Assembly: GCA_027489355.1 (NCBI GenBank)
Contig: JAIXZY010000066.1
Span: forward strand, 124,001 to 188,000
From: Paracoccaceae bacterium
GTDB lineage: Bacteria > Pseudomonadota > Alphaproteobacteria > Rhodobacterales > Rhodobacteraceae
Direction: 5' to 3'
Length of the DNA stretch: 64,000 bases
Shown: positions 19,044 to 51,058 of the stretch, piece by piece
Layout: each line of letters opens with the position of its first letter
Numbering within the stretch: the first letter of the stretch is position 1
Notes under the pieces: generated by a model
Database searches by the model: none
Seen by the model: the letters and a program-made list of their open reading frames with translations, nothing else
Told to the model about the DNA's origin: nothing
Translations under genes and position numbers: made by a program

Positions 19044-19097
19044 TCCGCTCTCCCGTTTTGGCGGCAGCATAGCCCGTTCCGGCCTCCGGCAAAGCAG

Positions 19098-19123
19098 AAA
19101 GGCACGCCCGAAGACGTGCCTTT
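19098..19123 (-). terminator. intrinsic-type terminator downstream of efp
   Basis: AAAGGCACG and CGTGCCTTT form a 9-bp stem with an 8-nt loop, about 80 bp beyond the efp stop and ahead of the next minus-strand gene. The T tail is short (CTTT within the stem). Confidence 0.6.
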
Positions 19124-19139
19124 CCATGCTTTCCACTTT

Positions 19140-19201
19140 CCTAACGTCCGCGACCAAGCGTTTGATAAGTCAGGGATCGCGGCGATTGTCCACCGTGGAC
19201 A
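19140..19201 (-). repeat. palindrome-plus-GTTA intergenic element, copy A (3' of efp)
   Basis: On the minus strand, two nucleotides after the efp stop, TGTCCACGGTGGACA (19201 to 19187) is a perfect 15-bp palindrome. The second motif CGCGGACGTTA ends near 19142, with its GTTA beginning 56 nt after the palindrome start. The same palindrome and spacing recur at 20901 and 37189. Confidence 0.75.
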
Positions 19202-19203
19202 GG

Positions 19204-19770
19204 TCAGTCCTTGGCGCGCTCGACGTAGCTGTCGTCGTCCGTGTTGATCACGATCCGGGTGCCCGGCCCGATGTGGGGAGGAACCATGACCCGCAGGCCG
19301 TTGTCGGTGATCGCCGGCTTGTAGGACGACGAGGCGGTCTGCCCCTTGGTGACCGGCTCGGTCTCCACGATCTCGACGGTGATCTTCTGCGGCACTTCCA
19401 GCGCGATCGGGATGCCGTCGAAGGTCTTGACGTAGCACTTCATCCCTTCCTGAAGGTAGGGCTTGTTGGCCCCCATCACGTCCTCGGTCACGACGACCTG
19501 CTCGTAGGTGGTCGGCTCCATGAAGTGGAAGCCCTCGCCGTCCTCGTAGAGGAAGTCATATTCCCGCTCGTCGACGGTGGCCTTCTCCACCATCTCGGTG
19601 GTCCGCCAGCGTTCCGAGACCTTCACCCCGTCCGAAATCCGGCGCATGTCGACAGAGGTGGTCGGGGTCCCCTTGCCGGGGTGGAAGTTCGAGGCGGTCA
19701 GCACGACGTAGAGCTTGCCGTCCATCTCGACGACGTTGCCCTTGCGGAGCGAGGAGGCGATGACTTTCAA
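19204..19770 (-). CDS. efp: Translation elongation factor P
   Basis: 188 residues with TTG 19770 as start, the exact length of E. coli EF-P; AAGGA stands 8 nt before the TTG. The longer frame (222 residues) would add a stretch unlike any EF-P. KOW/EF-P N-domain with the modification loop HPGKGTP, Lys33 being the residue that EpmA lysylates; then two OB-fold domains ending in the family signature ([26 protein letters not shown]). It relieves ribosome stalling at polyproline. Divergent neighbour of epmA. Confidence 0.96.
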
Positions 19771-19856: not shown

Positions 19857-20897
19857 ATGAATCCCGCATCACCCTGGTGGAGCCCCTCCCGCCACGCCGA
19901 CCGTCGCCCGATCCTTCTGACCCGGAACCGCATCCAGGCGGCGATCCGGGGGTGGCTCGCGGCGGAGGGTTTCACCGAAGTCGACCCCGCGGCGCTGGCG
20001 ATCTCTCCGGGCAACGAGGCGCACCTGCACGGGTTCGGGACGCAGGCGATCGGGAACGACGGGCTGCCCCGCCAGATGTACCTCCATACCTCGCCCGAGT
20101 TCGCGATGAAGAAGCTGCTCGCGGCCGGAGAGACGCGGATCCACGCCTTCAGCCATGTCTGGCGGAACCGGGAACGGGGGGCCCTGCATTCCCCGGAGTT
20201 CACGATGCTGGAATGGTACCGGGTGGGGGAGGGATATGAGGTCCTGATGGCGGACGTGATGGCCTTCCTTCGCGCCGCCGCGCGGGAGGCGGGGGCCTCG
20301 GTGTTGCGGTTCCGGGATCGGGCCTGCGATCCGTTTCTTGAGCCGGAGAGGGTCTCGGTGGCGGAAGCTTTCGAGATTCACGCGGGGGTGGACCTGATGG
20401 CCTCGATCCGGGCGGATGGGTCGACGGATGCGGGCAGGCTCGGGGCGGAGCTGGACAGGATCGGGGTGCGACGGGCGGGGGATGACACCTGGTCGGACAT
20501 GCTGAGCCGGGTCCTGTCCGAGAAGGTCGAGCCGAAGCTGGGCGACGGTCGGGTGACGATCCTGGACCGCTACCCGTCGGCCGAGGCGGCGCTGGCCCGG
20601 AAGGTGCCGGGGGATGACCGGGTGGCGGAGCGGTTCGAGGTCTATGCCTGCGGGGTGGAGCTCGCGAACGGGTTCGGCGAGCTGACTGACGCGGGCGAGC
20701 AGCGGCGGCGGTTCGAGGCGGAGATGGCGGAGAAGGCGCGGGTCTATGGGGAGGAGTATCCTCTGGACGAGGATTTTCTGGCGGCGCTGGAGATCATGCC
20801 TGCGGCGGCGGGGATCGCGATGGGGTTCGATCGGGTGGTGATGCTGGCCACCGGGGCGCCGCGGATTGATGATGTGATGTGGACGCCGGTGCCCTAG
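19857..20897 (+). CDS. epmA: EF-P beta-lysylation protein EpmA (GenX/PoxA)
   Basis: 346 residues. Class II lysyl-tRNA synthetase catalytic core without the anticodon-binding domain: motif 2 region FRNRERG-like ([22 protein letters not shown], about 101-122) and motif 3 [15 protein letters not shown] near 318-332. EpmA attaches (R)-beta-lysine, or lysine if EpmB is absent, to EF-P. Pairing with efp across an 86-bp divergent gap supports function. The partner EpmB, a lysine 2,3-aminomutase, is not in this window. Strong G-rich codon choice contrasts with genes left of 19 kb. Confidence 0.93.
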
Positions 20898-20900
20898 GTT

Positions 20901-20966
20901 TGTCCACGGTGGACATTTTCTGATTCATCATTGAAATCAGTTGGATGGCCGTGGGCGTTTACTGTC
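20901..20966 (+). repeat. palindrome-plus-GTTA intergenic element, copy B (3' of epmA)
   Basis: Three nucleotides after the epmA stop, TGTCCACGGTGGACA (20901-20915) is a perfect 15-bp palindrome. The second motif GCGTTTACTGTC has its GTTT at 20957, 56 nt after the palindrome start, as in copies A and C. The 41-bp centre differs between copies. Confidence 0.75.
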
Positions 20967-21002
20967 TGGAAAGGATATGGACCGCCAGCCCCCCACCCCC
21001 GG

Positions 21003-31905: not shown

Positions 31906-32208
31906 TTAGCGCTTCTTCCCGGCCGCGACGCGGTCCTTCATCAGATGCGACGGACGGAAGGTCAGCACCCGGCGGGGCGAGATCGGAACCTCTTCCCCGG
32001 TCTTGGGATTGCGGCCGACGCGGGCGGTCTTGGACCGGACCGAGAAGGTCCCGAAAGAGGAGATCTTCACCGTCTCACCCTGGGCAAGCGCGTCGGACAT
32101 GTGTTGCAGGACCGCTTCGACGAGATTGGCAGATTCGTTGCGGCTGAGACCAACCTCGCGGAACACCGCTTCGGAAAGGTCCATCCGGGTCAGGGTCTTC
32201 TCGCTCAT
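31906..32208 (-). CDS. ihfA: Integration host factor alpha subunit
   Basis: 100 residues, the family length. HU/IHF fold with N-terminal helices ([31 protein letters not shown]) and the DNA-intercalating arm [25 protein letters not shown] including the tip proline. It bends DNA as a heterodimer with IhfB. The start ATG 32208 follows GGGGGACGAG; the longer open frame is rejected. Transcribed from its own promoter downstream of fabH. Confidence 0.95.
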
Positions 32209-36408: not shown

Positions 36409-36461
36409 CGGGGTCTCCTTTGACGGGTAATCTAGGGGCTGAGGCCGCGGGGGGAAAGGGC

Positions 36462-37187
36462 GTGGAGCCACTTCGGAAGGGCGGGCTGGTCGCGCGGCTG
36501 GCGCAGGGGCGGGCCGACATGGCGCGGGTGATGGTGTTTCGGCGGGCGGCTTTCCCTCGGCGGGCGGGGACAGAGGAGGACGCGCAGGACGAGCTGTCGG
36601 CGCATGTGGTGGTCGAGGGCGAGGGGCGGCTCCTGGGGTATTTCCGGGTGATGCTGTTCGGCTGGGGCGCGGGGCTGGAGCAGGGGTATGTGGCGCGGTT
36701 CTACGATGTCGGCCCCTTGTCGGGCTATGCTCGGCCGATTGCCGAGATGGGGCGGTTCTGCGTCGCCCCCGGCGGGGTGCATCCGGACGTGCTGCGGCTG
36801 GCCTGGGGGGCGATGACGCGGATCGTGGATGAGGGGCAGGCGGGGCTGATCGTGGGCTGCACCTCGTTCCGCGGCGCGGGGTGGGAGGCGCACCGGGCGG
36901 CGCTGGAGCTGCTGGCCGAGGGCTGCATCGGCCCGCGGGAGCACCTTCCGGGCCGGCGGGCGGCGGAGGTTGTCGACTATCCCGCGCTGGTCGGGCCGGT
37001 GAGGGACCGCAGGGCTTCGCTTGCGGGGCTGCCGCCGCTGCTGCGGACGTACCTGGGGATGGGGGGCTGGGTGTCGGATCATGCGGTGGTGGACCGCGAT
37101 CTTGACACGCTGCATGTCTTTACCTGCGTCGAGGTCGAGAAGGTGCCGCCGGCCCGTGCGGCCAGTCTTCGGTCGGTCGCCGGCTGA
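36462..37187 (+). CDS. OlsB-like ornithine N-acyltransferase (GNAT/Acetyltransf_5)
   Basis: 241 residues with GTG 36462 as start (GGGGGGAAAGG 3 nt upstream); the open frame reaches 36420. Shares with OlsB the pattern [50 protein letters not shown] and VGCTSFRGA. OlsB moves a 3-hydroxyacyl chain from ACP to ornithine, the first step of ornithine lipids made under phosphate limitation. The usual partner olsA is not adjacent, so a hemolysin-like acyltransferase of other specificity is possible. Element copy C begins 1 nt after the stop. Confidence 0.75.
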
Positions 37188-37188
37188 C

Positions 37189-37257
37189 TGTCCACGGTGG
37201 ACATATCTGGATAACACATCAAAAACAACGTCTTGCCCGCGGACGTTAACTGTCCGT
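37189..37257 (+). repeat. palindrome-plus-GTTA intergenic element, copy C (3' of olsB-like gene)
   Basis: TGTCCACGGTGGACA (37189-37203) is a perfect 15-bp palindrome one nucleotide after the stop codon. GTTAAC starts at 37245, 56 nt after the palindrome start, inside CGGACGTTAACTGTCCG (37240-37256), itself an inverted repeat with 5-bp arms. Spacing is identical to copies A and B. Confidence 0.75.
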
Positions 37258-37270
37258 TGACCGTGAAATC

Positions 37271-50209: not shown

Positions 50210-51058
50210 GTGCCACCCAATGTGATGCACCGGACCACAGGCGGCGAGCAATCCGATGAAAGCCTGATTGCCGAGGTGGGTATGATCGGGGCCGTCGCGC
50301 AATGGTGCGAATGCCTGCATGGCCGCGATCCGCTGCTGCGTTCGCTGGAAGTGCTGGGGTTCGGCCTCAACGCAGAGATCGTGGCCTTGGCCCGCTACCC
50401 GCATGACGGCAAGGGCGCGGCCCGGACGGTGGTCTGGGATCGCAGCGCTGGCAACCGGATGTCCGTCGACCGGGGCTTTGCCAAGGCCCTGATCGGCGCT
50501 TATTTCGAGGCCGCGCGTCCTGGGAGCCTGTGGTTCCGGTCCACGGTGGAAAGTGGCGGCGCCTCCTCGATTGCCGAGTTCCACGCCGCGCGCCACCTGC
50601 GCGAGCTTGCGGTGATCCCGCTTCAGGCCGGAAATCGGGTGATCGACTGTTTCGAGATCCATTTCGCCGAACGTCTGCGCAGCCAGCAGCAGGTGATCCT
50701 GAATGCGCTGGCCCCGGTTCTGGCGCGGACCTGGCGCAACCGGGCCGAGGGGTTGTTCACCGAGGCGCTGCTGCGCGCCGTGCCCAGGGCGGACCGCGAA
50801 AATGTGGCGCCGATCCTCAGCGCCGAGAACCCCATGCGGCTGAGCCGGGCCGAGTATCGCGTCTCGCTGCTACTGTCGCGCGGGATGACGATCGAGGAGG
50901 TCAAGCGAGAGCTGCATATCCGCGACAGCACGCTGCGGTCTCATCTGAGCAGCCTTTACGCGAAGACCAACTGCGCCAACCTGAGCGAACTGGTGTTTTG
51001 CCTTGCCTCCTCGGTCTCTGGGCAGGAGGGTTCGGCGCGACGGGCCAGACTGGCCTGA
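50210..51058 (+). CDS. LuxR-type transcriptional regulator in tad locus
   Basis: 282 residues with GTG 50210 as tentative start (a GTG/ATG pair follows at 50222-50225). The N-terminal 200 residues show no recognised sensor domain. The C-terminal LuxR/GerE helix-turn-helix is MRLSRAEYRVSLLLSRGMTIEEVKRELHIRDSTLRSHLSSLYAKT (about 205-250). Its stop overlaps the prepilin peptidase start (TGATG), so it is cotranscribed with tad genes and likely regulates them. No LuxI homologue is nearby. Confidence 0.85.
   Translation: MPPNVMHRTTGGEQSDESLIAEVGMIGAVAQWCECLHGRDPLLRSLEVLGFGLNAEIVALARYPHDGKGAARTVVWDRSAGNRMSVDRGFAKALIGAYFEAARPGSLWFRSTVESGGASSIAEFHAARHLRELAVIPLQAGNRVIDCFEIHFAERLRSQQQVILNALAPVLARTWRNRAEGLFTEALLRAVPRADRENVAPILSAENPMRLSRAEYRVSLLLSRGMTIEEVKRELHIRDSTLRSHLSSLYAKTNCANLSELVFCLASSVSGQEGSARRARLA

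Follow-up and report, generated by a model that had tools for sequence, protein, structure and literature searches.

A dispersed element of palindrome, IHF-type site and motif Q at gene 3' ends in Tabrizicola, with lineage-specific palindrome spellings

Within the window, a 64-kb stretch of DNA analysed over its whole length, three genes are each followed by a copy of the same composite element. On the minus strand lies efp (elongation factor P, 19204..19767; Pfam EFP_N, EFP and Elong-fact-P_C), and on the plus strand are an epmA-like class II lysyl-tRNA-synthetase paralogue (19857..20897; Pfam tRNA-synt_2), called epmA below, and a GNAT-type, olsB-like acyltransferase (36420..37187; Pfam Acetyltransf_5, E 1e-7; start codon uncertain). 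Each element opens with a 15-bp palindrome, P, running in the direction of the gene before it: copy C at 19187..19201 (minus strand), 2 nt 3' of the tga stop of efp; copy A at 20901..20915 (plus strand), 3 nt 3' of the tag stop of epmA; and copy B at 37189..37203 (plus strand), 1 nt 3' of the tga stop of the acyltransferase-like gene. These positions and same-direction gaps of 1-3 nt are exactly those of the original prediction, and the central base is G in all three copies when read in the direction of the element.

The original prediction had described the 41-nt centres as unlike one another. This was wrong: each contains an IHF-type core at offsets 34-46, counting the first base of P as 0, at 20935..20947 (plus strand) in copy A, 37223..37235 (plus strand) in copy B and 19155..19167 (minus strand) in copy C (TATCAAACGCTTG). 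The cores match 7, 8 and 9, respectively, of the 9 letters of WATCAANNNNTTR, which a passage of PMC10380432 gives as the conventional IHF consensus. The third part of the element, motif Q, occupies offsets 55-73, at 20956..20974 (plus strand), 37244..37262 (plus strand) and 19128..19146 (minus strand) in copies A, B and C. The spacing of 56 nt predicted for this motif holds insofar as all three copies share CGTT at 55 and GTT at 56, while the strings quoted for it start at 50-52.

A model of the IHF and Q parts, built from 65 of 71 copies with the palindrome excluded, detected exactly three elements in the window at E <=1, with E values between 1e-8 and 2e-6 (copy A, 20930-20976, E 1.4e-7; copy B, 37218-37262, E 1.6e-6; copy C, 19125-19167, E 9.6e-9). 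Palindrome matches with up to three mismatches numbered six, a count reached by none of 100 shuffles, and at position 50538 the search found a palindrome-like match without the IHF and Q part. The only Rfam family over its gathering score in the window was a tRNA. Beyond copy C lies a terminator-like hairpin of the intrinsic type with a T-rich run (19091..19120, minus strand; read from the sequence, the copy C locus L052 being terminator-positive), so copy C has the efp stop on one side and the hairpin on the other. One subunit of the proposed binder of the middle site is encoded in the same window by ihfA (IHF alpha; 31921..32196, minus strand; TIGR00987 over cut-off at G000:C33:155921-156196, Pfam Bac_DNA_binding), which falls between elements, about 5-13 kb from them.

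The window belongs to a 4.2-Mb draft genome in 81 contigs (G000), in which perfect TGTCCACGGTGGACA sites number 75 (43 forward, 32 reverse). Sites with at most one mismatch number 97, compared with none for a control in which the pattern was read backwards. The model detected 119 matches against these 75 perfect 15-mers, so some copies in this genome lack a perfect palindrome. We examined the surroundings of all 75 palindromes, 1.5-2.7 kb each. The central base in the element direction was G in 71 copies and C in four (L038, L042, L071 and L081), and the C-centred copies were left out of the column frequencies and the alifold analysis described below. Within the G-centred copies we defined set A1 (68 of 71, without L056, L065 and L090) and set A2 (65 of 71, without L018, L037, L056, L065, L086 and L090), the omitted copies being those whose spacing looked shifted on visual inspection.

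Column frequencies of the 71 copies give the anatomy of the element as P at offsets 0-14, an A+T-richer stretch (A+T is raised at offsets 15-39), the IHF-type core [AT]-A-T-C-A-A-N4-T-T-G at 34-46, beginning 34 nt from the first base of P, and Q (CGTTARG-N6-GTTAACC), of which CGTTARG occupies 55-61 and AA followed by C or G falls at 70-73. A profile of the downstream part matched 73 of the 75 perfect palindromes in the right place and on the right strand at E < 0.1, with weak matches at L065 and L090 (E 4.2 and 0.35), and it matched eight of the ten loci left out of its building. The best match to WATCAANNNNTTR lay at offset 34 in 61 of 75 copies, with ties including 34 in four more; it scored 8-9 of 9 letters in 49/75, whereas no copy reached this score in a control stretch 150-250 nt downstream, where the best score was 7 once and otherwise 4-6. 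Q had its best match at offset 55 in 35/75 copies, and 18 were ties including 55. By its letters the middle of the element is an IHF-type site, at which IHF would probably dock, and IHF alpha is encoded over cut-off in 31 of the 32 genomes of the genus (the exception is 59% complete). Between the core and Q, positions 48-54 of the G000 copies carry two spellings, CGCGGRC or TTTTCC-like, which are correlated across several columns. A few copies (L033, L037, L070, L090 and some others, together with loci L200 and L203 of G018) appear by eye alike beyond the core as well, GCCGCAAGGG-like upstream and GGGGTGGTTAA-like downstream, and may represent a more recent sub-family whose dispersing unit was longer.

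The copies are concentrated at gene ends. With genes called by a simple codon-composition caller, 56/75 copies lie behind a gene of the same direction and 19 have no called co-directional gene upstream; P begins within 20 nt after the stop in 51 copies and within 9 nt in 44, while at the same loci only 114 of 15,805 control positions (0.7%) have a co-directional stop 0-20 nt upstream. The original prediction of a functional element is thus supported, and the conditions that it named as refuting do not hold: further copies exist (75 perfect), their internal distances hardly vary, and they are closely tied to stop codons. Among the 55 copies with a called downstream gene, that gene was convergent in 34, compared with 54 of the 132 gene ends in 398 kb of the relative G433 that leave a gap of >=80 nt (Fisher P = 0.01). 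A strict terminator-like hairpin followed only 6/75 copies (one in the control, n not given). The flanking genes scanned were mixed and mostly housekeeping. Autoregulation through P was considered and set aside, as 20 of the 38 flanking frames of copies not behind a co-directional gene yielded no convincing candidate; the only DNA-binding regulators named among those 20 were an Xre/MbcA/ParS-type antitoxin (L083) and a Fur-family protein (L089).

Matches to the strict pattern were found in named genomes of Tabrizicola flagellatus, Tabrizicola MAGs, Rhodobacter sp. SY28-1 and two MAGs named by phylum or class, and from these relatives we infer that the window genome belongs to the genus Tabrizicola, family Rhodobacteraceae. 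Comparison with related genomes showed that the IHF and Q part is present in 28 of 32 genomes of the genus, at 21-129 matches each, whereas four genomes are poor at E <=0.1 (G002, 0; G433, 2; G013, 5; G438, 8). Elsewhere in the family, 392 genomes of other genera were searched for the perfect palindrome; 11 had it, once each, which is near background. Under strict filters, IHF and Q matches at E <=0.001 were found in 7 of 196 genomes of other genera, and five of these seven, when scored in full at E <=0.05, contained 5-24 matches each. The matches listed in G007 and G074 all fall on contig C1 of the respective genome, which may mean that the set is restricted to the chromosome. Viral contigs gave no match to one strict 15-mer pattern.

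Individual places are conserved between species. Behind efp the profile found the element at 22/30 loci, and by eye the efp loci of G436, G006, G439 and G438 carry a weak, divergent or decayed one (in G438 both P and Q are decayed). Behind epmA it was found by profile at 13 of 28 assessable loci and by eye at about five more, with about ten lacking it. In a midpoint-rooted tree of efp and epmA coding DNA from 30 of the 32 genomes (without G003 and G009), G438 pairs with G012, which has 38 copies (support 61), G002 pairs with G007, which has 47 (support 87), G013 joins the group of G007, G002, G434 and G439 (support 100), and G433 stands beside these (94). The poor genomes are thus interleaved with moderately rich ones, yet all four fall in one part of the tree, which makes the number of losses uncertain. 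Their near-absence of the element is probably loss, and several losses fit, on a weak tree of two genes; G002 is only 80% complete. Direct examination of 398 kb of G433 found no palindrome-IHF element, only a single palindrome, at distance 28, with which no Q could be recognised; about ten elements would be expected there at 100 per 4 Mb, or about six after allowing for sensitivity. Nor did 400 kb of G043, a complete genome from a different genus, yield any. The strict palindrome-IHF test used here recovered two of the three known window elements, and its gene-end version one of three, so it is not fully sensitive.

While the IHF-type site and Q stay much the same, the spelling of P is specific to species or genus and 15-19 bp long, and it differs by species even at the fixed places behind efp and epmA. 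There are at least six such dialects: the 15-mer TGTCCACNGTGGACA, the 16-mers TGYCCRCGCGYGGRCA and GCGCCGCGCGCGGCGC, TGTCCC-N5-GGGACA, GCGTCCGAGCTCGGACGC and TGTCCCACGATGGGACA. Counts of the 15-mer TGTCCACGGTGGACA and the 16-mer TGYCCRCGCGYGGRCA separate genomes rich in the former (G000 75/0, G022 68/0, G005 75/1, G008 74/0, G010 96/0, G015 63/1, G024 63/0, G021 56/1 and G017 52/1) from those rich in the latter (G018 7/68, G011 0/43, G020 0/19 and G009 0/37), with G023 mixed (33/12). Several genomes have few of either (G016 21/0, G019 25/0, G014 1/11, G004 2/8, G001 0/6, G012 4/0 and G003 3/0), and the remaining genomes counted for both have 0-2; the 15-mer count excludes G433-G439. Half-site spacing changes at conserved loci between close relatives such as G000 (75/0) and G018 (7/68). 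GCGCCGCGCGCGGCGC is also used in G001 and G020, and TGTCCC-N5-GGGACA in G007. Among the best-scoring copies of five other genera (30 loci), P reads GCGTCCGAGCTCGGACGC in six of seven copies of G074, the seventh differing in its last base, TGTCCCACGATGGGACA in 5/5 copies of G108, GCGTCCCAC-type in 6/6 of G215 and GTCCCAYGC-type in 6/6 of G080. In G175 the position of P is kept and its sequence is non-palindromic, with TTCCCCCTGTGTTAC in four of six copies (L235, L284, L288, L292, L298 and L303).

Measured from the palindrome centre to the C of CAA in the IHF core, the distance is 28.5-30.5 nt for 117 of the 132 elements at other loci that could be scored (palindromes with at least 6/9 pairs), and for 22 of 24 elements from the four other genera with a palindromic P. 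This near-constancy indicates that the spacer tends to shrink when P gains a base. The variation of P by species while the rest of the element stays suggests a further partner protein. P is uniform in some genomes, while G011, G020, G009, G437 and G004 contain mixtures of related spellings, so co-evolution with a single reader is unproven.

These observations bear on whether P acts as DNA or as RNA. As a 3'-UTR element, P would form a hairpin behind the stop codon and act on mRNA stability, ribosome release or termination, like the REP hairpins of E. coli; the 44/75 copies within 9 nt of a co-directional stop, the palindromy kept in most dialects despite changed spelling and centre, and the position of the efp copy before a terminator-like hairpin all fit this proposal. 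However, alifold on the 71 copies paired only P, with scattered column pairs of modest score and no stem elsewhere, and the near-fixed distance to the IHF-type site has no obvious meaning in RNA. The six outer pairs of the P arms, counted in 129 of 142 elements (the 13 omitted were unlike the consensus forms used, other dialects among them), comprised 691 Watson-Crick, 29 GU, 17 AC and 37 other pairs, with little sign that GU was preferred to AC (P = 0.10). In G011, G020 and G009 two half-site spellings are combined in one copy with mismatched outer pairs, and in G175 the position of P is kept without a palindrome. Mixed half-sites break an RNA stem yet leave two readable half-sites, which favours a double-stranded protein site. 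We therefore hold with moderate confidence that P is such a site rather than an RNA hairpin, and we consider an RNA element unlikely, although the closeness of P to stop codons, which a purely DNA-level role does not explain, keeps it alive. The original prediction had offered a protein-binding pair, a 3'-UTR structure and a chromosome-organising site; protein binding is the best supported of these, with a third, IHF-type middle site that had gone unseen, and RNA structure is less favoured.

The anatomy, copy number, spacing, position, conservation and dialects of the element, and its near-absence in four genomes, are directly established. The explanation that we prefer, and judge somewhat more probable than the alternatives combined, is a dispersed, vertically inherited P-IHF-Q element that forms an IHF-bent nucleoprotein site at gene 3' ends and works like the RIB/BIME-1 elements of E. 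coli. In this model of a roughly 75-bp element, placed mostly at gene 3' ends, a putative dimeric protein would bind P, IHF would bind and sharply bend the middle site, and Q would be bound by another protein or by another part of the same complex; the near-fixed distances would let the bend join P and Q in one nucleoprotein knot. By analogy with the role discussed for BIME elements in E. coli, it would probably act as a roadblock or insulator where transcription units end, curbing read-through and restricting how far supercoils spread. The spelling of P would drift with the specificity of its binder, giving rise to lineage dialects.

RIB/BIME-1 is described, in the text of PMC2817692 and in the title of its reference Boccard and Prentki 1993, as combining palindromes with a region bound by IHF and as located at transcription-unit 3' ends, and a part of PMC6907758 discusses BIMEs as topological barriers. 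The element described here resembles RIB/BIME-1 in being a dispersed repeat with a predicted IHF-type site (8-9/9 consensus letters in 49/75 copies, 0/75 in the control) and in lying at 3' gene ends (51/75 within 20 nt after a co-directional stop). It differs in that two inverted REPs enclose the IHF region of BIME-1, whereas here a single palindrome is faced by an unrelated Q, and in its palindrome dialects by species and its lack of a RAYT over cut-off. RIP is a further name for RIB-type elements.

A related proposal extends to how the set evolves: an IHF-centred set spread over the chromosome in part of one family, whose palindromes evolve in concert because a fast-evolving DNA-binding protein rewrites tens of sites, and which lineages lose as a whole together with that protein. 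We regard this as plausible but tentative, at somewhat less than an even chance.

The element could instead belong to a segregation or nucleoid-occlusion system working like Noc, SlmA or MatP, in which a spreading or membrane-linked protein recognises P and IHF has only an auxiliary part. Like the Noc, SlmA, MatP and parS sets, it comprises tens of palindromic sites, here up to about 130 over the chromosome, and in each of G007 and G074 the matches listed lie on a single contig. Of four exact-palindrome sets (31/75 sites of G000, 59/63 of G015, 40/63 of G024 and 16/68 of G022), two are spaced more evenly than expected at random (P = 0.0002 in both) and the others give P = 0.07 and 0.20, with 0.06 and 0.07 in two fuller sets; evenness is thus only partly supported, and we set aside regular chromosome spacing as the main point. 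Sites of the Noc, SlmA and MatP type are usually bare palindromes, whereas this element is composite, keeps its IHF-type site and Q across dialects while P changes, and has a strict link to stop codons that segregation sites would not be expected to show. A segregation role therefore seems to us improbable.

A mobile origin, as a MITE or a REP/RAYT-driven repeat now reduced to remnants, would account for the many dispersed, mostly intergenic copies and for the few (L033, L037, L070, L090 and some others) that look alike by eye outside the core, and short extragenic palindromes in many copies are also what REP/REPIN systems with RAYT present. However, a Y1/RAYT transposase over the PF01797 cut-off was found in none of the 32 genomes of the genus (two weak matches fell below it; E. 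coli and Caulobacter were positive), which rules against REP/RAYT. The fixed IHF and Q modules differ from REP as well, and no constant tetranucleotide of the GTAG/CGTC-type tag stands beside P, where only position -1 is clear upstream (C or G) and the downstream bases are mostly A/T. The element keeps its places behind efp and epmA in many species, and a change of P at kept positions is unlike the outcome of transposition. Correia elements of Neisseria are small, MITE-like, IHF-binding repeats with terminal inverted repeats; the present element is likewise a small repeat with an IHF-type site, but the left and right ends of its 71-copy consensus differ and are not inverted repeats of each other. 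We consider a mobile origin very unlikely. The remaining proposal, that Q is a CtrA box and the element a site of CtrA/IHF gene control, is likewise very unlikely: although Q keeps the frame of the full CtrA site, given as TTAA-N7-TTAA in a passage of PMC6180460 (mean 5.9/8 at offset 57, where 6/8 is reached at ~0.01% of control-offset positions), the frame is never perfect in 75 copies, and these lie mostly at the ends of mixed, largely housekeeping genes. Since 25/75 copies score 7/8 and about 4.9 perfect frames would be expected from column frequencies, the full CtrA site may be avoided.

In E. coli the dispersed, IHF-binding palindromic repeats found at gene ends are tied up with REP transposases, and to our knowledge there is no settled account of why bacteria retain such repeats. 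We found no description of the element or of its palindrome letters in the open-access literature, most subscription journals lying outside the search. Relative to RIB/BIME-1, what is new is an element that shares two sequence-tested features without a second REP or a transposase. It thus offers an independent system that lacks a REP-type transposase, occupies corresponding loci in different species and shows naturally occurring dialect changes and near-loss of the whole set. The poor genomes turn the hunt for the partner protein into a comparison of gene content, and the dialects provide a ready test of its specificity. If true, the concerted evolution of P would be a bacterial parallel to the fast co-evolution of dispersed DNA sites with their reader.
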